Translations under genes and position numbers: made by a program
Shown: positions 6,049-49,216 of the stretch, in pieces
Position numbering within the stretch: the first letter of the stretch is position 1
Layout: every line of letters begins with the position of its first letter
Assembly (NCBI GenBank): GCA_009692185.1
Contig: SHZT01000009.1
Location: 1 to 49,334, forward strand
Source of the DNA: Gemmatimonadota bacterium
GTDB lineage: Bacteria; Gemmatimonadota; Gemmatimonadetes; Gemmatimonadales; GWC2-71-9
DNA length: 49,334 bases
Reading direction: 5' to 3'
Notes under the pieces: model-generated
Told to the model about the DNA's origin: nothing
The model's input: the letters and a program-made list of their open reading frames with translations, nothing else
Database searches by the model: none

Positions 6049-6624
6049 ATGAAACCCGAAAGAATGCGAGTCCGTAGGGGGGAATGCATGACAGACCAGA
6101 CCCAGCTCCCGCCGAATGGTGAGGACCCAGTCCTCGACCGGCAACTCCTTGCCCTGACACGCTTTAAACCCATAGTCGTGTTTGAAGACCGGGTGTTGTC
6201 CGGGGTGTGGCGGCCGGCTCCAATGTTTGTCCTGATCTGGCAAGATCGCCTCAGCCGGGTCTTCACACCGGCGCGGCGCTGGATGCTTGCGGGAGTGGCA
6301 TCACTCGGGTCGTTCGGGTCCGCGATGATTCTTGGTCACCTGGTCACCAATCATCTGCTCAATTCCGACCTCGGCCTCAGGGTATCGAGCGCCATGGCGG
6401 CCGGAGCGACCGAAAACATTTCGTGGGACCGCGTATCGGGCGCGGTTGCCTCCATTGCTCCTGCAGCGGCGGGATCCATCTCAGGGTTGCCCGCCGCTTC
6501 GTTTTCACAACTGGCGAGCGTCGCCCCGTGGGCAACGCTGGCCACGATCATCAGCGGAGCAGGGCTGTACCTCGTCGCGAGGCGGCCTGCGCGTGAAAGG
6601 GTTCGGTCCTATGCGTCGCGTTAG
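6049..6624 (+). CDS. Membrane protein following sigma gene, possible anti-sigma role
   Basis: 191 residues from ATG 6049, or 178 from ATG 6088, which has the better ribosome site (a GGGGGGA run just upstream). The first about 80 residues are soluble and contain FEDRVLSGVWRPAPMFVLIWQDR. Two hydrophobic segments follow: one around RRWMLAGVASLGSFGSAMILGHLV and one near the end around WATLATIISGAGLYLV. I do not recognise the family. Its position directly after an ECF sigma gene, with ATGA overlap once the sigma frame is repaired, and its inner-membrane topology suggest an anti-sigma or sigma-modulating role, but no zinc-finger HxxxCxxC motif is present. Its 3' end overlaps the next gene by 14 bases. 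Confidence 0.6.
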   Translation: MKPERMRVRRGECMTDQTQLPPNGEDPVLDRQLLALTRFKPIVVFEDRVLSGVWRPAPMFVLIWQDRLSRVFTPARRWMLAGVASLGSFGSAMILGHLVTNHLLNSDLGLRVSSAMAAGATENISWDRVSGAVASIAPAAAGSISGLPAASFSQLASVAPWATLATIISGAGLYLVARRPARERVRSYASR

Positions 6625-7825
6625 CTCGAGTTTCGTTCTTGCCGTGGCTGCGGTTGCTGCACCGTCCGTGTCCGTTCCGGCCGGCGCACAGGCGCCGCAG
6701 ATCGTGGCGCACACCGTGGACCTCTCCAGCCGGCAGGCCTCGCTGGGCCTCGAGCTATCGGACGGCAGCGCGGTGAAAATCAGCCTGGCCCGCGGGGTTT
6801 TCCAGATCAACGACAAAGAGGCCGGCCGCTACTCCTCGGGTGGAGCGCTGGAGGAATCCTGGCGCGCCTTGCTGGACGAGGCAGCCAGTTTGTCTACGGC
6901 CGGCTTGCGTACCCGCATGACGGCCTGGAGAGTGAACGGCCTGGCGGGTCCGGAACTCAAGATCAAGCGGCTGATCGACGGAGCGTTCCAGAAACTGCCG
7001 AGCGCCGGGACGGAAGTCCTTATCGCCCCTAGTACCCGGGAACCGGTGGGCGACCCGGGCAACGTGGACGTAGCCGCGCAGGTGGGTGAAAGGGTCGCCC
7101 GCGCCGTGGCCGCCTCCGTGGCTGCCCAAGCCACCCAGGGTCGGGGGTTCGACGTCAACATTGCGCCGGCATCTCGCGGCGTGGGCACCGTGGCCAACAA
7201 CATCGCCGGGCTGATCGGCATGTTCGTCGCCCTGGCCTGCATCGCGTTCGGGCTGGTGTCGTTCGCACCGCGGCAGGTCGAGGCCGTGGCAGACACGGTA
7301 CACCGGTCGTTTGTGCGCTCGTTCTTCGCTGGCCTCTTCGCCCAGCCGCTCCTCCTGCCCATTCTCGGCATGATGACCGTCGGCCTCATCCTGACGATCG
7401 TCGGGATCGTGGTGGTCCCGGTGGCGCTCGTTGCGTTCACGCTGGCGGTGGCCCTCGGCATGATCGGCTGGTACGTGGCCATTGCGCGGGCCTTGGGCGA
7501 GGTGATTCTCAGGCGTCGCGGCGCCGACGGTGACTTCTCGCTGGGAACGACGCCCTACCGGGCCAGTGTCGTCGGCCTGGCCGGCCTCCTGGCCATCTGG
7601 GCGCCGTTCGCGCTCATGTCGGAAGTGCCGGGCATCAACTGGGTGCTCCTGTGGTGCGCCATCGTGTTCACGTGGGTCATGGCAACGGCGGGGTTTGGCG
7701 CCACCATTCTCTCGCGGGGCGGCATCCGTCATTCGTTCGTCCGCCCGCTGATCCCGGTGTCCGGCGAATTCCGCATCACCGGTGAAGTCGCGGCGGCTCG
7801 CGCCGCAGTCCGGGAACTCGAATGA
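6611..7825 (+). CDS. Exported multi-pass membrane protein, unknown function
   Basis: 404 residues from ATG 6611, chosen because a clear signal peptide follows (MRRVSSSFVLAVAAVAA... cleaved near AGAQA, residue 27). Residues 30-190 form a soluble, probably periplasmic domain with no motif I recognise. Membrane segments follow at about 194-218, 240-295 (two or three long helices, LLLPILGMMTVGLILTIVGI and neighbours) and 318-368. The layout is an N-terminal external sensor-like domain followed by a bundle of 5-6 helices. It overlaps the previous gene by 14 bases and the next by 4 (ATGA), so the sigma-linked operon is translated as a unit. Function unknown. Confidence 0.7.
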   Translation: MRRVSSSFVLAVAAVAAPSVSVPAGAQAPQIVAHTVDLSSRQASLGLELSDGSAVKISLARGVFQINDKEAGRYSSGGALEESWRALLDEAASLSTAGLRTRMTAWRVNGLAGPELKIKRLIDGAFQKLPSAGTEVLIAPSTREPVGDPGNVDVAAQVGERVARAVAASVAAQATQGRGFDVNIAPASRGVGTVANNIAGLIGMFVALACIAFGLVSFAPRQVEAVADTVHRSFVRSFFAGLFAQPLLLPILGMMTVGLILTIVGIVVVPVALVAFTLAVALGMIGWYVAIARALGEVILRRRGADGDFSLGTTPYRASVVGLAGLLAIWAPFALMSEVPGINWVLLWCAIVFTWVMATAGFGATILSRGGIRHSFVRPLIPVSGEFRITGEVAAARAAVRELE

Positions 7826-21002: not shown

Positions 21003-22673
21003 TCACATCCTCTTGTATCGGGGACCGCTGCCGCCTTCGCGCGGAGTCCACCGTGGACCCAGCACGTCGGTCGCCTTGCAATCCACGCAGTTGGGCGGGT
21101 TCACCTTGAGTTTTCCGTCCACCAGCTCGTACACACCGGCCGGACAGAGGTGAGCATACATCCGGGCGACGTCCTCCGGAACGTCTTGGCCCACAATCAA
21201 GTGCGACGGAATGGTATCGCGGGTGGCGTTCCCGGATTTGAAGACGGCGTCCACCTTGGAAAAAGTGAGTTTGTTATTAGGTGCGGATGAGCGGATGAGG
21301 GGATGAGCGGCTGCACCCTGCCGTGGCACGTCGGCATCGCGGTGCATCGAGATCTTGCCGCCGGGGAAGGCGCCGCCGGTGAGGGTCATGAGGCCTGCCT
21401 TCACCCCGCCCACGTAGAAGCCGTCCTTGAACGCAAGCCGCATGTTGCGGGTGCGGTACAGATCCTTCGTGATGAACGATTCGTTGACGCGCCGGTCGTA
21501 CTCGCCAAGCTGGGTTGCGGAGCAGTCGTTGGCCTTGAGGGCGCGGAAGATGGCGCGGGCGGCGAACATGCCGGACTGCATGGCATAGTGAACGCCCTTG
21601 AGTGACGGGACGTCCACAAACCCTGCTGCATCCCCGGCGATGAGGACGCCGTCGCCCGAGCGACGCGTGGGGAGCGAGTAGAAGCCGCCCTCAGGGATTG
21701 TCTTGGCTCCCCACTCCACCATTTCTCCACCCTCCAGGTACTTCCGGAACAGCGGGTGCAGCTTCATGCGCTGGAGGGTTTCGTGCACGTCGAAATCGGG
21801 GTCGGGGCAATCGAGGCCGGCCACGAGGCCGAGGGCCAGGACGTTTGGCTCGAGCGGGTAGAGGAAACTCCCGCCGAACGCATCTGCCGGGAGAGGCCAA
21901 CCCATCGTGTGGATTACGCGATCGAGAGGCCGCTTGGTCTCCCAGATTTCCTTGACGCCCAGCGCGAAGATCTGCGGGTTCGGTGAGCCGATGTTCTGCC
22001 ATTCCAGGTATGCCTGCGCGAGCGGTCCCCGTGTTCCTTCCGTCAGCACCGTGACCCTCGCCGCGACGTCTGTCGGCGGCCTGTAGCCCGACGCCGGCTG
22101 TCGGTCGCGGCCCAGGCCGGAGGGCGTCGTCCGCACGCCGGCCACGCGCGGGCCATCTACCAGCAAGGAGTCGGCGGGATACCCGGGGAACAGGTTGACG
22201 CCAGCCTGCTCCGCTTTTTCGCCCAGCCACCGGACGATTTCGCAGAGCGACGCGACGTAGAATCCCTTGTTGTGCATGGTGGGCGGCGTTGGGATCCGGA
22301 CGTGGCCGCCCTGGGTGAGTACGCAGACCGATTCCTTCGTGACCAGCCCGCGGAATGGAAAGTCCGGGTCGGCCATGCCGGGAAACAGTTCGTGAAACGC
22401 CCGCGGGTTCACCACGGCGCCGGACAGCGAATGCTCCCCGAGGGCCGCTGCTTTCTCCAATACGCCAATTCCGATTTCGCCGAGCCCGTTTCGGGATTCG
22501 TTGTCGTGCTTGACCAGGCGGGCAAGTTCGATGGCGCCCGCGAGGCCCGCAGGCCCTGCGCCGACGAACACGACGTCGAGGTCAATGCGATCGTCGGCGG
22601 GTTTTTCGGCGAGGATCAGCCGGTCTTTCGGGAGGGCTGGCTGGAATCGTGCGGGAACGAATGAAGTGGACAT
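21003..22673 (-). CDS. Electron transfer flavoprotein-quinone oxidoreductase
   Basis: 556 residues from ATG 22673. Membrane-associated FAD/Fe-S enzyme passing electrons from ETF to the quinone pool. Visible: FAD fold [72 protein letters not shown], and the C-terminal ferredoxin-like part CPAGVYELV. Two oddities. The [4Fe-4S] ligand set is incomplete: Cys510, Cys529 and Cys532 are present, but residue 535, Cys in the usual NCxxCxxCD pattern, is Thr (NCVDCKATD). A GCGGATGA array (21283-21314) is translated as HPLIRSSAP in the linker before [11 protein letters not shown]. It overlaps no gene and follows etfA by four bases. Confidence 0.93.
21283..21314. repeat. 8-bp array inside the ETF-QO gene
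   Basis: GCGGATGA, GCGGATGA, GGGGATGA, GCGGCTGC. On the coding strand it reads as TCATCCGC-type units, the same orientation as the other arrays relative to their genes. The frame stays open. Confidence 0.85.
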
Positions 22674-22677
22674 CAGG

Positions 22678-23643
22678 TCACGCCCCACGGAGCTTCTTGA
22701 TCTCCTCGGTGAGCCGCGGCACGATCTCGAACAGGTCGCCCACGATTCCGTAGTCGGCGACTTTGAAGATCGGCGCGTCCTTGTCCCGGTTGATCGCGAC
22801 GATGACTTTCGCGGTCCGCATGCCGGCCAGGTGCTGCACGGCGCCCGAAATGCCGATCGCGAAGTAGAGGGACGGACTCACGGTCTTGCCGGTCTGTCCC
22901 ACCTGGTCGGCGTGGGACCGCCAGCCGGCATCAACCACGGCGCGCGAGGCGCCGACGGCGGCATTCCCGAACGCCGCGGCGAGATCTTCGAGCAACTTGA
23001 AATTGGCCGGTTCCTTGAGCCCCCGCCCGCCGGCCACCACGATGGCCGCTTCCGCCACGTCGAGCGCGGTACGCTCAGGAGCCTTCACCTGCGTCGTCTT
23101 TGCACGTCCGGGGTCGGCCGGCGCCGGCACCGGCGTGACGGTTCCCGCCTTCGCGGAGGCGACCGCCGCGAATACGTTGGGCCGGACCGACACCACGCAC
23201 GACGGCGCGGTGACGCGGGTGCGGCTGAGCGCCTTGCCGGAATAGACCGGCCGGGTGGCGACGACACCCTGGTCCAGGGCGAGCGCGGTGACGTCCGCCA
23301 GCAGGGGAACGCCGAGCCGCGCTGCAATCCTCGGCCCAAGATCCCGGCCCTGTGCGGTCGCGGCCAGGACGACAGCGGAATAGGCACCGGCCTTCGCCCG
23401 CTCGGCCACCGCCTCGGCATAGGCCGAGGCCTGGTACAGGCGAAGGCGATCATCCGCGATGACGAAGACACGGTCTGCTCCGTGGGCGGCCAGACCGTCG
23501 GTGGAAATGCCTCCGGGCCCAATGAGGACGGCGTCCACGGTCCCGGACGGGTCCGCGAGGAGCCGCGCGGCCGCCAGGGCTTCAAACGAGACACCGCGGA
23601 GCTTGCCGTCTCTCTGTTCGAGTACCGCGAGAATGGCGCTCAT
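22678..23643 (-). CDS. etfA: Electron transfer flavoprotein alpha subunit
   Basis: 321 residues from ATG 23643, which overlaps the etfB stop (ATGA). N-terminal alpha/beta domain (ILAVLEQRDGKLRGVSFEALAAA), then the C-terminal FAD-binding domain with VAGGRGLKEPANFKLLEDLAAAFG, ASRAVVDAGWRSHADQVGQTGKTVSPSLY and AIGISGAVQHLAGMRTAKVIVAINRDKDAPIF, the ETF-alpha signature. Accepts electrons from acyl-CoA dehydrogenases as heterodimer with EtfB. A longer frame upstream to 23979 is antisense-like shadow inside etfB. Confidence 0.96.
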   Translation of the reverse strand: MSAILAVLEQRDGKLRGVSFEALAAARLLADPSGTVDAVLIGPGGISTDGLAAHGADRVFVIADDRLRLYQASAYAEAVAERAKAGAYSAVVLAATAQGRDLGPRIAARLGVPLLADVTALALDQGVVATRPVYSGKALSRTRVTAPSCVVSVRPNVFAAVASAKAGTVTPVPAPADPGRAKTTQVKAPERTALDVAEAAIVVAGGRGLKEPANFKLLEDLAAAFGNAAVGASRAVVDAGWRSHADQVGQTGKTVSPSLYFAIGISGAVQHLAGMRTAKVIVAINRDKDAPIFKVADYGIVGDLFEIVPRLTEEIKKLRGA

Positions 23644-24395
23644 CAGATGGCCTTCGCTTCGGAGCGCAGGGCCTGGATGAGGGCGGTCACGGCGTCGGGG
23701 CCTTCGCCCACGATGCGGCCTTCCTTCCGGGCGGGCGGGAGAGCCAACTCGAGGAGGGTGACACCGCCGGCGTCGAGCGTCACGGCCTTCACCTCGAGCG
23801 GTTTCTTCTTCGCGGCCATAATGCCCTTGAGCGCGGGGTAGCGCGGCTCGTTCAGCCCCTTGTCGGCGCTGAGCACGGCGGGGAGCGAAAGCTCCACGAC
23901 TTCGATGCCCCCCTCGACTTCGCGTTCGGCCACGGCACTGCCCCCGTTCACCTCGAGGTGCCCGATGGCGGTGACGCACGGCAGGTCGAGCAATTCGGCG
24001 ACCATCGGGCCGACCGCCTGGTGGTAGTCGTCAATGGCAAACTTGCCGAACAGAATGAGGTCGTAGGCGCCCGACTTGAGCTCGGCGGCGAGGGCCCGGG
24101 CGGCGGGCAGGGGGTCGGCGGACGGCGTGTCGGTCTTGAGGAGGACACCGCGGTCCGCGCCCATGGCGAGCGTGGTGCGAATGGTTTCCTGAGACGCGTC
24201 GGAACCCAACGCGTAGACGACGACCTCGCCGTTCCCCGCTTTTTCCTTCAGGCGGAGCGCCTCTTCGACGGCGAACTCGTCGTATGGGTTGAGGATGAAC
24301 TTGACGCCGGCCTCGTCGATGGACTTCCCATCAACGCCGATCTTGATGCGGGTCTCCGTGTCGGGGACCCGTTTCACGCAGACAGCGATTTTCAC
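23643..24395 (-). CDS. etfB: Electron transfer flavoprotein beta subunit
   Basis: 250 residues from GTG 24395. KIAVCVKRVPDTE at the start, NPYDEFAVEEALRLKE, the AMP-binding region with GADRGVLL and FGKFAIDDYHQAVGPMVAELLDLP, and the C-terminal LSADKGLNEPRYPALKGIMAAKKKPLE ETF-beta signature. First gene of the etfB-etfA-ETF-QO-FKBP operon; the corA gene ends 13 bases upstream on the same strand. With glutaryl-CoA dehydrogenase (41359-42543) this gives a complete route from acyl-CoA to quinone in the window. Confidence 0.96.
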   Translation of the reverse strand: MKIAVCVKRVPDTETRIKIGVDGKSIDEAGVKFILNPYDEFAVEEALRLKEKAGNGEVVVYALGSDASQETIRTTLAMGADRGVLLKTDTPSADPLPAARALAAELKSGAYDLILFGKFAIDDYHQAVGPMVAELLDLPCVTAIGHLEVNGGSAVAEREVEGGIEVVELSLPAVLSADKGLNEPRYPALKGIMAAKKKPLEVKAVTLDAGGVTLLELALPPARKEGRIVGEGPDAVTALIQALRSEAKAI

Positions 24396-35610: not shown

Positions 35611-37017
35611 CTAGCTGACTTTCTGTGGCTTCGGCGCTCCCTCCGGCCCGTTATCCCAGTCCTGCACACTTGACACGTTGGGCATGCCCCACTGGTGACC
35701 GTTCCAGCCGTCGAATCCGTCCATCTTGAGCACCCAGAGCCCTGTACTCATGTCGCTCACGAAGATCATTCCGTCGGCGTTGCGGACCTCCACGCCGAAG
35801 GCGCCGTTGGCGTTGCCGGTGCCCTCTTCCGGCCGGTCGACGCCACCCCAGCCCCGCTTCCGGGGCCCGTCGTACGTGTCGTAGTAACCCACGGTGTAGG
35901 GGTTGGTGGGATCCATCATGTTGAAGACGTGCATCCCGTCTTCGTAGCCCGACACGAACACGTACGGCCAGCGGACCTCGTGGTTGTGCGGGAGGTTGCG
36001 CCAGTTCGAGGTCCATGCGCCGATGGGCCGCGAGATCGTCTTGACCTCGCCGGACAACCCCGGCTTGAGGTCGTAAATCCGGAGCGGCGAATACACGTAC
36101 TCCATTTCGCCGACGGCGTAGCGGCCGTCCGGGGTCGGCGTGAACGTGTGATAGCTCGCGCCGCCGGCGACACCCGTGATCGAGGTAATCAGCTTCGGTT
36201 CCTCGGGCCGGGTCACATCGAACACGAAATACCCCGCCGACCACGCCGCGCCGTAGAACTTGTCCTGGTGGGTGGCGGGGTCGTAGCCCACGTAGAAGTC
36301 GTGGTAGGTCCCGGTCGTGTTTTGTGTTCCCGCCCGGGGAGCGGCGGCGGCCGGGGCCGTCGTTTCGGGAATCGGGATGCGCGCCACGAACCCCTGGTCT
36401 TCCGCGCCGCTGACGAACCGGTCCAGGTCCCAGACGCTGGTGAACGGACCGGTGCTGGTAGTGAACAGGAGGACCCGGCCGTCGGAGTGCTTGTAGGTGA
36501 ACAGGTTGTGGATTCCGCCCGGATTGGCCGGCACCCGCAATCGCCGCACCTCCCTGATCGTCGTCGTGTCGGGCAAGCCGGTCACGTCGAACACGATCGC
36601 GCCGACTTCCTCGTTGGGGCTCCCCTTGAGAATCTGGAATGACTGGGCGTAGTAGTACCTGCCCTTGAGCTTGAAGTACTTGCCCTGGAGCCCGCCGTAG
36701 GCGCGCAACAGCTCGGGCTTCTCCATGGTCCAGGTGAACAGCAGGCGGGCCTTCGACGGATCCTTGACGCTCACGATGCTGAACCCGGTTGACCGCGTGG
36801 TCCCCTGCATGCGGGGCACGTACACGTACGGCCGGGACAATTCCTGCTCCGCCTCGATGTCGCCGACCGTGAACAGCCGGCCCAGCGGGACGTGCGAGAG
36901 CACGTGCACGTTGCGGCTGCCCTGCTCCCCGGGCGGATGGTCCTGTGCCCGCGCGGGGCCGGCAATTGCAGCCATCAAGGCGACGGGCAGGGTCAGGGTG
37001 ATTCCCGATCGCATCAT
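35611..37017 (-). CDS. Secreted beta-propeller-like protein, copy 2 of 3
   Basis: 468 residues from ATG 37017 (GGGAGGA directly upstream; ATG 37014 equally possible). Signal peptide MRSGITLTLPVALMAAIAGPARAQ. Same order of blades as copy 1: YVYVPRMQGTTRSTGFSIVSVKDPSKARLLFTW, GAIVFDVTGLPDTTTI, HNLFTYKHSDGRVLLFTT, GYFVFDVTRPEEPKLITSITG, YHTFTPTPDGRYAVGEMEY, HNHEVRWPYVFVSGYEDGMHVFNMMDPTNPYTVGYYDTYDG, and the invariant tail. It has an extra Ala/Pro-rich insert (ETTAAPAAAAPRAG type). Frames upstream of 37017 are spurious. Function unknown. Confidence 0.75.
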   Translation of the reverse strand: MMRSGITLTLPVALMAAIAGPARAQDHPPGEQGSRNVHVLSHVPLGRLFTVGDIEAEQELSRPYVYVPRMQGTTRSTGFSIVSVKDPSKARLLFTWTMEKPELLRAYGGLQGKYFKLKGRYYYAQSFQILKGSPNEEVGAIVFDVTGLPDTTTIREVRRLRVPANPGGIHNLFTYKHSDGRVLLFTTSTGPFTSVWDLDRFVSGAEDQGFVARIPIPETTAPAAAAPRAGTQNTTGTYHDFYVGYDPATHQDKFYGAAWSAGYFVFDVTRPEEPKLITSITGVAGGASYHTFTPTPDGRYAVGEMEYVYSPLRIYDLKPGLSGEVKTISRPIGAWTSNWRNLPHNHEVRWPYVFVSGYEDGMHVFNMMDPTNPYTVGYYDTYDGPRKRGWGGVDRPEEGTGNANGAFGVEVRNADGMIFVSDMSTGLWVLKMDGFDGWNGHQWGMPNVSSVQDWDNGPEGAPKPQKVS

Positions 37018-37063
37018 TCCTCCCAGTTGACTGTTGGCCTTGAGCGCCCGTCCGTCCGTTGAT

Positions 37064-37081
37064 CCCGCCCTGAAGGGCGGG
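37064..37081. repeat. CCCGCCC-TGAA-GGGCGGG palindrome
   Basis: Perfect 7-bp stem with TGAA loop upstream of propeller copy 2. Same TGAA-loop design as the palindromes at 33943 and 34084 and the CTGAA-centred parts of the gpmI element. Confidence 0.7.
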
Positions 37082-37255
37082 CGTCGAAACGGGATCGGAC
37101 ATCGGGGACGAAGATGCGGTTTTTCGCCACGCAGTGCAACGAATTGGGTGCACGGGAGACAGGGGCTGCCACTAGGGTCATTGCGCGGCGCGGTGGCGCG
37201 TGCAGGGTTCTTCGTCTCGGACCTTCGGGTCTTGCCTGGTTCGCAACCGATTGGT

Positions 37256-43410: not shown

Positions 43411-43722
43411 TCACTTCATCAACTCTCGTACCGTCCTCCGCACCACCATGTTGGCGAGCACGAACCAGACCACCACCGCCACGACGCCGACCCGGCGCGC
43501 GATGGGCTCGGGGGGCACGCGAAGTGTAACGTAGATCGCCAAGACCACCGTACTCGCCAGCGCGATGGCGTTGGCCCACCGCGCGGCCTTGCGCTCGATC
43601 TCGTCGCGGCACGCGCGGCAGAGCGAGCCGAATGGCAACTCGACCGCGCGGTGGCAGCGGGGACACTCGTGCTCAACCAAGCCGCCGACAAACGGCGTCG
43701 GCGAATCCCATCGTCGTAGCAT
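43411..43722 (-). CDS. Small zinc-ribbon membrane protein
   Basis: 103 residues from ATG 43722, whose 5' end overlaps the isocitrate dehydrogenase gene by 50 bases; a TTG near 43680 (just before VEHECPRC) is the alternative start. A zinc ribbon CPRC...CRAC near residues 20-38, then two membrane helices (WANAIALASTVVLAIYVTLRVP and VGVVAVVVWFVLANMVV). Unknown family; treble-clef-type small membrane proteins of this kind are common in high-GC bacteria. Tucked between IDH and the phosphoesterase in the operon. Confidence 0.65.
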   Translation of the reverse strand: MLRRWDSPTPFVGGLVEHECPRCHRAVELPFGSLCRACRDEIERKAARWANAIALASTVVLAIYVTLRVPPEPIARRVGVVAVVVWFVLANMVVRRTVRELMK

Positions 43723-44689
43723 GGCCCTTCAAGTCCGGCGTTCGCACGTTGTCATCCCGGATCACCTGCTCCAGCGCCTTGCGCACCCGGTCGGCCCGGG
43801 ACGGCTCACCAACATGATCCAGCATCATACACCCGGCGAGGATCAGCGCCGAGGGGTTGGCCACACCCTTGCCGGCGATATCGGGGGCCGAGCCGTGGAC
43901 GGCCTCGAACAGGGCGCACTTCGAGCCGATGTTGGCGCCGGGCGCGAGTCCCAGGCCGCCAACCAACCCGGCGATTTCATCGCTCAGAATGTCACCGAAC
44001 ATGTTGGTCGTCACGATCATGTCGAACTGGGCGGGATCCAGCACCAGCTTCATCGCGCACGCGTCCACGATGATGTCATCCGCCACCACGCGGCCGGCGA
44101 ACTCCCGGGCGACACCCTGGGACACCTCGAGGAACAGTCCGGTGAGCGCCTTGAGAATGTTGGCCTTGTGGACGATGGTCACCTTCTTCCGCCCGTGCGA
44201 CACCGCGTATTCAAACGCGTACCGGGCGATCCGCTCGCGCCCGACTCGCGTGGTGTAGGCCACCGACTGCGCCATGGCCCTGGGGTCGCCGCCGATCCCG
44301 ATGATCCCCTCGAAACCCGAGTAGAGCCCCTCGGTGTTTTCCCGGACCAGCACGATGTCCACGTTCTCGTAGCGTCCACCGGGCACAATGGTCTTCGCGG
44401 GCCGGACGTTGGCGTAGAGATCAAACTCTTTTCGCAGGGCGACGTTGATCGAGCGGAACCCACCACCGACGGGCGTGGTGAGCGGCCCCTTGAGGCCGAG
44501 TTGTGTCTGGCGAAGGCTTTCGAGGGTCGCGTCCGGCAGGGGTGTCCCCGACTCCTCCATGGCCGCCATGCCGGCCAGTTGTTCGTCCCACTCGAACTCC
44601 GCCCCGGCCGCGGCCAGCACCCGGAGCGTCGCTGCCGTGATCTCGGGGCCGATGCCGTCCCCGGGTATGAGTGTGGCCCGCCGCTTCAC
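43673..44689 (-). CDS. NAD-dependent isocitrate/isopropylmalate dehydrogenase family
   Basis: 338 residues from GTG 44689. Signatures: LIPGDGIGPEI near the start, GPLTTPVGGGFRSINVALRKEFDLYANVRP (the phospho-site Ser / substrate region typical of isocitrate dehydrogenase), VDIVLVRENTEGLYSG, DILSDEIAGLVGGLGLAPGANIG, and FEAVHGSAPDIAGKGVANPSALI. The Asp after GSAP indicates NAD rather than NADP use. Most likely NAD-isocitrate dehydrogenase of the TCA cycle, but homoisocitrate or isopropylmalate dehydrogenase cannot be excluded by eye. It overlaps the upstream gene by four bases and the downstream zinc-ribbon gene by 50. Confidence 0.9.
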   Translation of the reverse strand: MKRRATLIPGDGIGPEITAATLRVLAAAGAEFEWDEQLAGMAAMEESGTPLPDATLESLRQTQLGLKGPLTTPVGGGFRSINVALRKEFDLYANVRPAKTIVPGGRYENVDIVLVRENTEGLYSGFEGIIGIGGDPRAMAQSVAYTTRVGRERIARYAFEYAVSHGRKKVTIVHKANILKALTGLFLEVSQGVAREFAGRVVADDIIVDACAMKLVLDPAQFDMIVTTNMFGDILSDEIAGLVGGLGLAPGANIGSKCALFEAVHGSAPDIAGKGVANPSALILAGCMMLDHVGEPSRADRVRKALEQVIRDDNVRTPDLKGHATTMGFADAVCRRLG

Positions 44690-45312
44690 CGCCCCTTTGG
44701 CGGCGTGAGAACAAAAATGGCCGCGGTCACCGCATTGAACGCCGTGTCATCGCTTCCCCAGGCGTCGGACTTCCAGGCAATCGCCCCTACCTTCGTGTCT
44801 ACCAGAATCACGGTGAACTCCGCTCGCGCGCGGCCGGTCTTGGTGGCCTTGAACGTCATGCGGGCGGGCATGAGGACGTAGCGACCATGGTTAATTGTGA
44901 CGAGGCGTCGCAGCTGCTCCAGCAGGTCCGACGGCACACCCATCAGGGCCCGCAGCCTGAGCTTGCTGGTCGCCAGGCTATCGGGATGGGGCAACGACCG
45001 GTCGGCCTCCGCACGTTCCCGCACCGTCACGGCGTCCATCCATGGCACGTAGGGCACGCGACGGTGCAGGCCGGACGCGATGACGCTGTCCACCCGGAGG
45101 CGCTGGGCGTAACTCAGGTCCTCGGAGCCGATAGCTCCCGGGTCGGCGGCGAGTTCCAGGAGGGGCAGGACCATGACCGGCGCCCCTGCTAGGCCGTCGA
45201 TGGGCAACGCCGAGAAGTCGGAGTCTCGCCACATGTAGGCGCCGGCCGCTGCACAGGAAACGGTCGCAAGCGTGGCCAGTGCCACGCCCAATCGGGTGCG
45301 GAAAAACGACAC
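44686..45312 (-). CDS. Exported protein, paralogue of the next gene
   Basis: 208 residues with an N-terminal hydrophobic anchor or signal (LGVALATLATVSCAAAGAYMW; the SC could be a lipobox). The rest: MVLPLLELAADPGAIGSED, LRVDSVIASGLHRRVPYVPWMD, LATSKLRLRALMGVPSDLLEQLRRLVTINHGRYVLMPARMTFKATKTGRARAEFTVILVDTKVGAIAWKS. It shares the arrangement '(A)TSxL+xxAL...LxxQLRxLxxIxxGRYxLxPAxxxF...AxFxIxLxDxxxGAxxW' with the gene just upstream in transcription order (45330-45956). Envelope location inferred. Function unknown. Confidence 0.6.
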   Translation of the reverse strand: MSFFRTRLGVALATLATVSCAAAGAYMWRDSDFSALPIDGLAGAPVMVLPLLELAADPGAIGSEDLSYAQRLRVDSVIASGLHRRVPYVPWMDAVTVRERAEADRSLPHPDSLATSKLRLRALMGVPSDLLEQLRRLVTINHGRYVLMPARMTFKATKTGRARAEFTVILVDTKVGAIAWKSDAWGSDDTAFNAVTAAIFVLTPPKGR

Positions 45313-46753: not shown

Positions 46754-46986
46754 GCCGCCGGAGCGGACCGGGTCAGGTTCGGGGCGCGGCGCGAGGGCGG
46801 CCCCGGACGCACGTCCGCCACGCTCGCGCTCGGAGAAATCGCCGGGGTCTCGCCGGGTGAAGGGGATGGGACGCTCGATGTTCCAGGGCCCGTGGAGTGT
46901 CGCTCAAGCCCAACCTACGGCATGGGCCGGAAAAGCGGAACGGCGGTGGGTTGCGGGAGAGACGCGCCGGGGTAATCTCTACGTCC
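46754..46986. other. Divergent intergenic region before cstA
   Basis: 233 bases between the SDR remnant and cstA, with no gene seen. Possible cstA promoter at 46951-46978 (listed separately). Otherwise GC-rich with no evident operator or terminator. Confidence 0.5.
46951..46978 (+). promoter_or_regulatory. Possible sigma-70-like promoter of cstA
   Basis: TTGCGG (46951-46956), 16 bases, TAATCT (46973-46978). A start site 6-7 bases after the -10 would fall at about 46985, right at the cstA ATG (46987), so the transcript would be leaderless or nearly so. No Shine-Dalgarno is visible upstream of the ATG, which agrees. Confidence 0.35.
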
Positions 46987-49032
46987 ATGCCGAAAACACT
47001 TTCCGTCATCGCCTGGGCCGCCGTGTCCCTGCTGGGGGCATCGGGCTTCGCCATGCTCGCCATGAACCGGGGCGAGACGATCAGCGCGGCGTGGATGGTC
47101 ATCGCCGCCGTCTGCACTTACGTGGTCGCGTACCGCTTCTACTCGCGGTTCATTGCGACCCGGCTCATGGCGCTGGATGACCGCCGCGCCACACCCGCCG
47201 AGCGGATCAACAACGGCCGCGACTTCGTACCGACCCACAAGTGGGTGCTGTACGGGCATCACTTCGCGGCGATTGCGGGCGCAGGGCCGCTGGTGGGCCC
47301 GGTGCTGGCGGCGCAGTTCGGCTACCTGCCCGGGACCCTCTGGCTCATCATCGGCGTGGTGTTTGCCGGTGCGGTGCAGGACTTCGTGATCCTCTTCGCC
47401 TCCATGCGCCGCAACGGGAGGTCGCTGGGGCAGATGGCGAAGGAGGAAGTGAACCGCGTGACCGGCGTGGCGGCGATGATCGCGATCCTCATGATCATGA
47501 TCATTCTGCTCGCGGTGCTGGCGCTGGTGGTGGTGCGGGCGCTGGCCGAGAGCCCGTGGGGCGCCTTCACGCTGGCCTGCACGATTCCCATCGCGTTCGG
47601 CATGGGCTGGTGGATGAAGGTGCTCCGCCCCGGCAAGACACTGGAAGCGACCATCGGGGGCGTGGCACTGCTGATGGTGGCGCTCTGGGGAGGGCGGCTG
47701 GTGGCGGAGAACCCGGCGTGGGCGGCCGTATTCACGCTCAAGCCGACGACCACGGCGGCCTGGCTGATCGGCTACGGGTTCATCGCGTCGGTGCTGCCGG
47801 TGTGGATGCTGCTCTGCCCGCGGGACTATCTCTCGACGTTCCTGAAAATCGGAGCGGTGGCCGCTCTGGCCCTGGGGATCCTGCTGGTCCTGCCACCGCT
47901 CAAGATGCCGCCGGTGACGCAGTTCATTGACGGCACCGGCCCCATTTTCGCGGGCAAACTCTTTCCGTTCGCGTTCATTACCATCGCGTGCGGCGCGGTC
48001 AGCGGGTTCCACGCCCTCGTCGCCTCCGGCACGACGCCAAAGATGCTCACCCGGGAATCCGACGCGCGGCTCATCGGCTATGGTGGCATGCTCACCGAGT
48101 CGTTCGTGGGCGTCATGGCGATGACCGCGGCGTGCGTCCTCGACCCGGGCATCTACTTCGCCATCAACGCGCCGGCCGCCATCATCGGCACAAACCTGGA
48201 CCAGGTAGCCCAGACCATTCAGGGCTGGGGGTTCACGTTCTCCGCGGCCGACATGCAAGCGCTGACCACGCAGATGGGTGAAACCTCGCTGCTCTCCCGC
48301 ACCGGCGGCGCCCCGTCGCTCGCGGTGGGCATGGCGGTGATCTTTTCCAGCGCGACGGCCAAGCTGGGCGGGTCGGGGTTCACGGCCATGTGGTATCACT
48401 TCGCGATCATGTTCGAAGCCTTGTTCATCCTGACGACCATCGACACCGGCACCCGCGTCGGCCGATTCATGCTCCAGGAAGTGGGCGGGCACGTGTGGCC
48501 GCGATTTGCCGAGGTCTCGTGGTACCCGAGCATCGTGATCTCCAGCGCGATGATCGCCGGCGGGTGGGGCTATTTCCTGGTGCAGGGCGTGCTGGACCCC
48601 CTCGGGGGGATCAACTCGCTCTGGCCCATGTTCGGCATCAGCAACCAGCTGCTGGCCTGCATCGCGCTCACCGTGGGCACGACGGTGATCATCAAGATGA
48701 AAAAGGCCCGCTACGCCTGGGTGACCATGGTGCCGATGGCGTGGCTCGCGGTAACCACGCTGACCGCCGGCTGGCAAAAGGTGTTCGCGGCAGACCCCAA
48801 GCTCGGTTTCCTGGCACACGCCGCCTCGCTCGCGACCTCCACCGCCGCCAACGCCGGCCGGCTCCGGTTCAACGACTACTTGAACAGCACGCTGACGGTG
48901 ATCTTCATGAGCGTGGTGGTCCTGGTGATCCTCGCGGCCGCCCGGGAGTGGTACCTGGTGCTCGGCGGCAAGAAACAGCCGGTACTGCAGGAATCGCCGT
49001 TCGTGCAGAGCGCGTATGCTGCGGGAGACTGA
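46987..49032 (+). CDS. cstA: CstA-family pyruvate/peptide transporter
   Basis: 681 residues from ATG 46987. About 16-18 membrane helices with family blocks VPTHKWVLYGHHFAAIAGAGPLVGPVLAAQFGYLPG, VFAGAVQDFVILFASMRRNGRSLGQMAKEE, LCPRDYLSTFLKIG, ACGAVSGFHALVASGTTPKML, AMWYHFAIMFEALFILTTIDTGTRVGRFMLQE and LWPMFGISNQLLACIAL. CstA/BtsT-type proteins import pyruvate (and peptides) under carbon limitation. The characteristic small YbdD/YjiX protein follows, as in E. coli. Frames extending upstream of 46987 are probably not used. Confidence 0.95.
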   Translation: MPKTLSVIAWAAVSLLGASGFAMLAMNRGETISAAWMVIAAVCTYVVAYRFYSRFIATRLMALDDRRATPAERINNGRDFVPTHKWVLYGHHFAAIAGAGPLVGPVLAAQFGYLPGTLWLIIGVVFAGAVQDFVILFASMRRNGRSLGQMAKEEVNRVTGVAAMIAILMIMIILLAVLALVVVRALAESPWGAFTLACTIPIAFGMGWWMKVLRPGKTLEATIGGVALLMVALWGGRLVAENPAWAAVFTLKPTTTAAWLIGYGFIASVLPVWMLLCPRDYLSTFLKIGAVAALALGILLVLPPLKMPPVTQFIDGTGPIFAGKLFPFAFITIACGAVSGFHALVASGTTPKMLTRESDARLIGYGGMLTESFVGVMAMTAACVLDPGIYFAINAPAAIIGTNLDQVAQTIQGWGFTFSAADMQALTTQMGETSLLSRTGGAPSLAVGMAVIFSSATAKLGGSGFTAMWYHFAIMFEALFILTTIDTGTRVGRFMLQEVGGHVWPRFAEVSWYPSIVISSAMIAGGWGYFLVQGVLDPLGGINSLWPMFGISNQLLACIALTVGTTVIIKMKKARYAWVTMVPMAWLAVTTLTAGWQKVFAADPKLGFLAHAASLATSTAANAGRLRFNDYLNSTLTVIFMSVVVLVILAAAREWYLVLGGKKQPVLQESPFVQSAYAAGD

Positions 49033-49033
49033 C

Positions 49034-49216
49034 ATGACCGTCGTGCAACGCCTGGGCCGCGCCATTCGCGTGGTGTTCGGCATGCCCGACTACGATCGGT
49101 ACCTCACGCACCGCGAGGCCGCTCACCCCGGCGAACCCGCGTTGTCACCGTCGGACTATTACGCCCAGCACCTGAAACGCCGGTACGAGAGCGGCGGGCC
49201 GACGAGGTGCTGCTAG
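49034..49216 (+). CDS. YbdD/YjiX-family small protein
   Basis: 60 residues from ATG 49034 (GGGAG nine bases upstream, inside the cstA end). Signature: RLGRAIRVVFGMPDYDRYLTHREAAHPGEPALSPSDYYAQHLKRRY, the complete YbdD/YjiX family. These proteins are encoded after cstA/btsT and are required for, or modulate, pyruvate uptake. One base separates it from the cstA stop; clearly co-transcribed. Confidence 0.93.
   Translation: MTVVQRLGRAIRVVFGMPDYDRYLTHREAAHPGEPALSPSDYYAQHLKRRYESGGPTRCC

Follow-up and report, generated by a model that had tools for sequence, protein, structure and literature searches.

A three-cysteine clade of ETF-quinone oxidoreductase homologues in Gemmatimonadota and the cluster it may hold

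The locus and its ETF-QO homologue

The stretch of DNA analysed here, which we call the window (49,334 nucleotides), holds on its minus strand etfB, etfA and an ETF-QO gene arranged head to tail, which links the last of them to the genes of both ETF subunits (Table 1). Its reading frame stays open as far as the conserved C-terminus, and translation gives an intact product of 556 amino acids. When this protein was scanned with Pfam, the quinone-binding domain ETFQO_UQ-bd (PF21162) was recovered at 83.9 bits over a cut-off of 27.7 and the C-terminal Fe-S domain Fer4_ETF_QO (PF05187) at 42.4 bits over a cut-off of 24; the FAD-binding N-terminal domain is marked by GAGPAG at residues 38-43 and by the fold match to porcine ETF-QO (2gmh), which begins at residue 26. 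The porcine enzyme is also the best solved relative found by phmmer (E 1.2e-91, 311.5 bits). An AlphaFold2 model of the window protein, built on an alignment of 66 sequences (mean pLDDT 94), resembles 2gmh with a TM of 0.90 in structure search and superposes on it with Z 47.7 and an rmsd of 1.7 Å over 520 residues within the range 26-556; since the match runs through residue 556, the Fe-S domain is predicted to have been kept. An NCBIfam scan returned only matches far under their cut-offs, and no CCG domain of the EtfD/Hdr type is among the Pfam matches, which places the protein outside the EtfD family. The four-ligand arrangement C...CxxCxxC of canonical ETF-QO is incomplete in the window protein, which has Thr535 and no conserved substitute cysteine. 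On account of this failed feature, we call it a member of a three-cysteine variant clade related to ETF-QO and not a canonical [4Fe-4S] member. Its predicted fold, its domains and its gene context suggest that it would work like ETF-QO.

Table 1. Positions within the window of the ETF genes and of the codons around the putative cluster site
Feature	Position	Strand	Basis
Three-cysteine ETF-quinone oxidoreductase homologue, 556 aa	21003..22673	-	Intact ORF, Pfam and AlphaFold2 model
etfA, ETF alpha subunit, 321 aa, directly upstream of the ETF-QO gene	22678..23643	-	Pfam ETF, ETF_alpha
etfB, ETF beta subunit, 250 aa, overlaps the etfA start	23643..24395	-	Pfam ETF, 151.9 bits
Cys510 codon TGT (CPAGVYE), retained ligand	21144..21146	-	Cys in 176/176 aligned proteins
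Cys529 codon TGC, retained ligand	21087..21089	-	Cys in 176/176
Cys532 codon TGC, retained ligand	21078..21080	-	Cys in 176/176
Thr535 codon ACC, fourth-ligand position of relatives with at least four Cys	21069..21071	-	Thr 134/134 class B, Ile 3/3 class C, Cys 39/39 class A
Asp536 codon, candidate oxygen ligand, class B only	21066..21068	-	Asp 134/134 class B, 38/39 class A, Ser/Thr class C
Residues 482-486 (NxTRD)	21216..21230	-	N482, R485, D486 in 137/137 three-Cys proteins

The order etfB-etfA-etfQO recurs in 28 of the 71 genome loci that have at least 1.9 kb of upstream sequence; the other 43 are without it, some of them having ETF genes elsewhere in the locus. The source genome, given as 99.94% complete, contains a single ETF-QO match, five acyl-CoA dehydrogenase matches (one of them inside the window) and, for menaquinone, two matches of the MqnA/MqnD type. 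EtfD, if present, would appear as a CCG match. The Pfam CCG search of this genome for a second route of ETF oxidation found only one ORF, which follows a GlcE-like ORF, carries both CCG matches and is read as glycolate oxidase GlcF, hence no EtfD was found. In the phylum (Gemmatimonadota, as assigned from named relatives) EtfD homologues do occur, in Gemmatirosa according to PMC13083937, and they may explain the phylum genomes that are devoid of ETF-QO. Elsewhere in the window, four long ORFs have no Pfam match at E 0.001, namely 46915-49083 (-), 43565-44881 (+), 35651-37153 (-) and 6332-7825 (+); some of these may be shadows of opposite-strand genes.

Conservation, spread and origin of the three-cysteine form

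An earlier note on this DNA had claimed that the C-terminal motif reads NCVDCKATD in place of NCxxCxxCD, with cysteines at 510, 529 and 532 and threonine at 535, and this is borne out by the translation, the codons and the alignment to 2gmh. In the phmmer alignment NCVDCKATD lies without a gap on the porcine NCVHCKTCD, so that Thr535 occupies the position of the fourth cysteine. Ala534 replaces the threonine that precedes the fourth cysteine in the porcine motif, a residue that reportedly hydrogen-bonds the cluster and whose mutation is said to lower the potential.

Two hundred loci in which the match spans the query from residue 40 or before to residue 545 or beyond were kept for comparison, and 176 proteins were left without the identical ones. 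By the residue at position 535 they fall into class A (cysteine, n = 39), class B (threonine, n = 134) and class C (isoleucine, n = 3). In the three-cysteine proteins, that is, classes B and C together, Cys510, Cys529 and Cys532 are present in 137/137 and position 535 is never cysteine; Asn528, CPA and both V and E of VYE are equally invariant. All 137 also share Trp321, Asn482, Arg485, Asp486, Ala534, Gly539 and a four-residue gap after residue 540, of which class A has Arg485 only, in one protein out of 39; Asn482 and Asp486 occur in 0/39, position 486 being glutamate in 38 of them. Residues 482-486 may lie near the cluster. Among the 134 class B proteins, 80 of 556 columns are invariant, and the median identity over 1500 sampled pairs is 65%. 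Their Thr535 is encoded by ACC (83 proteins), ACG (40), ACA (6) and ACT (5), that is, by all four threonine codons, the pattern that selection on the residue itself would leave. The possibility that another cysteine might align at the ligand position, raised in the earlier note, found nothing to sustain it, the alignment containing no conserved substitute; a cysteine elsewhere was likewise rejected, as the next-best cysteine column, 144, is filled in just 66% of class B.

The reach of this form was assessed at several levels. The residues C, C, C and T stand at the four positions in 110/110 of the loci first fetched, a set that includes the window locus (L001) and duplicate genomes. The named records number 80; the titles of 74 give Gemmatimonadota or a group within that phylum, those of 3 Acidobacteria, of 1 Vicinamibacteria and of 2 Planctomycetota. 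This tally is biased, since the best 80 out of 107 were taken and NPPNCVDC, one of six peptide patterns used, overlaps the motif; searches with the window protein as query also rank class B first. Independent of both biases are a family search and a motif count in the phylum, each made on an evenly drawn sample of 298 genomes. Fer4_ETF_QO matches were found in 189 of the 298, the other 109 having no match at that threshold, and the exact DNA-coded motif NC[VI]DC[KR]ATD in 177 of 298 genomes drawn in like manner, with no match to a backward control pattern of the motif among the rows listed for the phylum sample. Twelve genomes with Fer4_ETF_QO lie beyond the 177: four carry a family (f3) whose motif, read in three, is a second three-cysteine form, NCVQCGAI[ST], the fourth locus (L158, genome G042) ending before the motif and being assigned to class C solely from its family and identity; two carry a seven-cysteine form; five have a separate FixX-like protein, three of which were read and two of which (L156, L157), unmatched by the motif expression, were counted by score and by an adjoining FixC-like ORF; and one has a different giant protein. 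Nearly all sampled Gemmatimonadota with the enzyme thus have the three-cysteine form. Such breadth marks a lineage, not a mutant, and the question put by the earlier note, which had described one protein, whether the change is fixed in the phylum, can be answered: it is fixed across the lineage. In the two genomes with the seven-cysteine form (L111 in G306, L112 in G197) it replaces the three-cysteine one, and these proteins branch outside the three-cysteine clade.

Class B was also met in two further groups, reached via records titled Planctomycetota and Vicinamibacteria, where it was counted in 15 of 246 and 3 of 247 genomes, respectively, centres included. The 15 comprise matches of at least 61% identity, the centre (G311) and one locus genome (G313) among them; the motif reads as class B in 13, the remaining two loci (L172, L179) ending before it. 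All three genomes of the second group, among them the centre G312, read as class B. Among the other loci of the best 30 in each group, and among 16 lower ones, there is one class C protein (L180); all others have at least four cysteines.

Our phylogeny, calculated on residues 1-430 (without the Fe-S domain) of 71 selected rows, which include 26 of the 134 class B proteins, and rooted on FixC-like proteins, places the 29 three-cysteine rows of classes B and C in a single clade (100/100, starred) among class A forms; the forks that put the clade among class A have support of 92/81 and 91/82, below the starred level. Four class B rows from the group with 15 of 246 genomes cluster in a separate branch (100/95), more in keeping with an old transfer than with stray contigs. 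None of the members of the clade that were read has a fourth cysteine. The simplest reading of the tree is that the fourth cysteine would have been lost once, long ago, the other three being strictly retained thereafter. One ancestral remodelling may have combined the loss of the third cysteine of CxxCxxC, the deletion of four residues after the motif and the change of several other residues.

The cluster held by three cysteines

As three of the four cysteines remain, the protein probably holds a cluster of a different kind than the canonical one. We propose that it may work as an ETF:menaquinone oxidoreductase and contain a [3Fe-4S] cluster, a proposal based on sequence to which we give about an even chance; both the activity and menaquinone as acceptor are inferred. 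Acyl-CoA dehydrogenases would reduce ETF, encoded directly upstream, and the electrons of ETF would pass to the three-cysteine enzyme and, through its cluster and FAD, to menaquinone, as family knowledge suggests; the remaining cysteines would hold a [3Fe-4S]+1/0 centre still able to act as one-electron relay beside FAD. The canonical ETF-QO cluster is reportedly the electron acceptor for ETF, and the loss of a ligand might thus be expected to harm the enzyme. Several observations argue for the proposal. The isoleucine of class C has no donor for iron. According to PMC6237146, ferredoxins with a non-cysteine residue, threonine among them, in the CXX?XXC motif have been isolated as [3Fe-4S] proteins, and all mycobacterial ferredoxins with such residues that were examined there are [3Fe-4S]; in succinate dehydrogenase, a native [3Fe-4S] cluster adjoins the quinone site (PMC8097209). 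EtfD, too, combines a threonine in place of a cysteine with a [3Fe-4S] cluster, albeit a linear one (PMC13083937). On the other side, it is the second cysteine of the motif and not the third that is missing in the [3Fe-4S] ferredoxins of PMC6237146, PMC8097209 cautions that [3Fe-4S] is often a purification artefact of [4Fe-4S], and Asp536, invariant in class B, could ligate a fourth iron there. A cysteine combined with CxxC is, furthermore, the pattern of aconitase, which has a [4Fe-4S] cluster with a labile iron.

The main alternative is accordingly that a [4Fe-4S] cluster is still held, its fourth iron resting on a non-cysteine ligand (Asp536 or Thr535 in class B, Asp486 in both classes) or, as in aconitase, on water. 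We regard it as rather unlikely, yet next in line after [3Fe-4S]: Asp536 and Thr535 are invariant in 134/134 class B proteins, Asp486 occurs in 137/137 three-cysteine proteins and 0/39 of class A, and an aspartate ligand is known for the [4Fe-4S] ferredoxin of Pyrococcus furiosus (PMC6237146, PMC8097209). However, class C has Ile535 with Ser/Thr536, which means that Asp536 is not kept and that no ligand at position 535 is common to the clade, so that Thr535 as ligand throughout it is ruled out; Asp536 is, besides, found in 38/39 class A proteins, where four cysteines are already present. That the cluster has been lost altogether, ETF delivering electrons directly to FAD, or that the three cysteines bind another metal, appears improbable to us. 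In its favour are the missing ligand and the loss of four residues from the loop that follows, but the three cysteines, CPA, Asn528 and both V and E of VYE persist in 137/137 proteins despite a median class B identity of 65%; had the cysteines no use, they ought to have drifted, as happened at position 535 between classes B and C. The incomplete site announced by the earlier note therefore stands insofar as three of the four expected cysteine ligands are present without a conserved extra one; of the cluster types that it had listed, [3Fe-4S] has become plausible, short of proof, and the absence of any cluster unlikely. The change in electron transfer to quinone that it had also predicted is hypothetical.

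Could the fourth cysteine have been lost because the enzyme serves menaquinone and not ubiquinone? The source genome has its two MqnA/MqnD-type matches, and the phylum makes menaquinone: PMC9426454 reports men-like genes and an incomplete set of ubiquinone genes for it, and either MK-8 or MK-9 for its six isolates. Yet most of the relatives read from the Planctomycetota- and Vicinamibacteria-named groups keep at least four cysteines. These groups are also known as menaquinone users, which makes menaquinone alone an insufficient cause and rules it out as the sole one; we consider this explanation very improbable. An assembly or sequencing error is of negligible probability, and with it recent decay is ruled out: the same residue is found in 110/110 loci and the motif in 177/298 genomes, the threonine codons are varied, and the frame is open to the conserved C-terminus.

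Returning to the [3Fe-4S] proposal, it is tempting to hypothesize that, in a clade found in most ETF-QO-bearing Gemmatimonadota and in minorities of two other groups, the sole cluster of the enzyme changed from [4Fe-4S] to [3Fe-4S] in a single, native and lasting step; we hold this stronger claim to be somewhat less than evenly probable. If true, cysteine numbers in the C-terminal domain of the family would form the series eight, seven, four, three. No report of a three-cysteine ETF-QO was found in the literature searched, the coverage of which leaves out most subscription papers, those on ETF-QO mutants included. Electrons from the oxidation of fatty acids and amino acids enter the quinone pool through ETF-QO, whose four cysteines are regarded as ligands of a [4Fe-4S] cluster. 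A naturally occurring clade that has dropped one of them and kept the rest strictly, with no second copy in the genome examined, represents a ready-made experiment on the role of the cluster. Are the potential and geometry of [4Fe-4S] indispensable to ETF-QO, and did a [3Fe-4S] relay close to quinone, of the kind seen in succinate dehydrogenase, evolve independently? Caution is also advisable in annotation, as not every Fer4_ETF_QO match need be a 4Fe-4S enzyme.

Comparison with related and analogous systems

Porcine ETF-QO (ETFDH, 2gmh) is a full-length homologue with the same order of domains, from which the window protein differs at the cluster site by Cys to Thr at 535, Thr to Ala at 534 and four residues fewer after 540. 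The plasmid-borne ETF-QO of Proteobacteria (L247-L250) also has this domain order, but its motif is NC[VL]HCKTCD with all four cysteines in the 4/4 read; at two of these four loci (L248, L250) the gene directly follows those of ETF beta and of a 'FAD-binding protein'. In the tree, class A proteins with seven or eight cysteines (L231-L233 and L246 among them) surround the three-cysteine clade and, unlike it, have a second conserved set of cysteines before CPA.

These relatives are worthy of mention in their own right. In L231, L232, L233 and L246 the C-terminal domain has eight conserved cysteines, arranged as in a two-cluster ferredoxin; L246 branches apart from L231-L233, so the eight-cysteine pattern is not one clade. 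The aligned class A proteins (L181-L194, L198-L224) have seven invariant cysteines in 39/39 and, at the eighth position of the two-cluster ferredoxin, aspartate (CxxCxxCDxxDP), which makes a second cluster with an aspartate ligand possible in class A. A further arrangement is found in a Gemmatimonadota family (f9; L253:532-9069 (-), also L159, L161, L162 and L163), in which a single ORF of about 2,850 amino acids joins an ETF-QO-like FAD and Fe-S part with four cysteines, an acyl-CoA dehydrogenase, two ETF-domain stretches and an ETF alpha FAD domain. It is possibly an acyl-CoA-to-quinone electron chain on one polypeptide. Its open frames measure 2846, 2851 and 2700 amino acids in three genomes and 1419 in a fourth, the Pfam scan covering the first of them only; residues from about 700 to 1480, scanned alone, gave no Pfam family at E 1, the N-domain of the acyl-CoA dehydrogenase starting at 1477. 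Three of the four genomes also have a class B ETF-QO.

Beyond the family, [3Fe-4S] ferredoxins of the CXX?XXC(X)nCP type, as described in PMC6237146, replace the second cysteine of the motif, whereas the window protein replaces the third and falls outside that group. The mycobacterial ETF:menaquinone dehydrogenase EtfD (PMC13083937) is, unlike the window protein, not homologous to ETF-QO: it is a membrane heme protein with four clusters, its [3Fe-4S] cluster being linear. EtfD nevertheless carries out the same step, has threonine in place of a cluster cysteine, and holds one of its clusters as [3Fe-4S].
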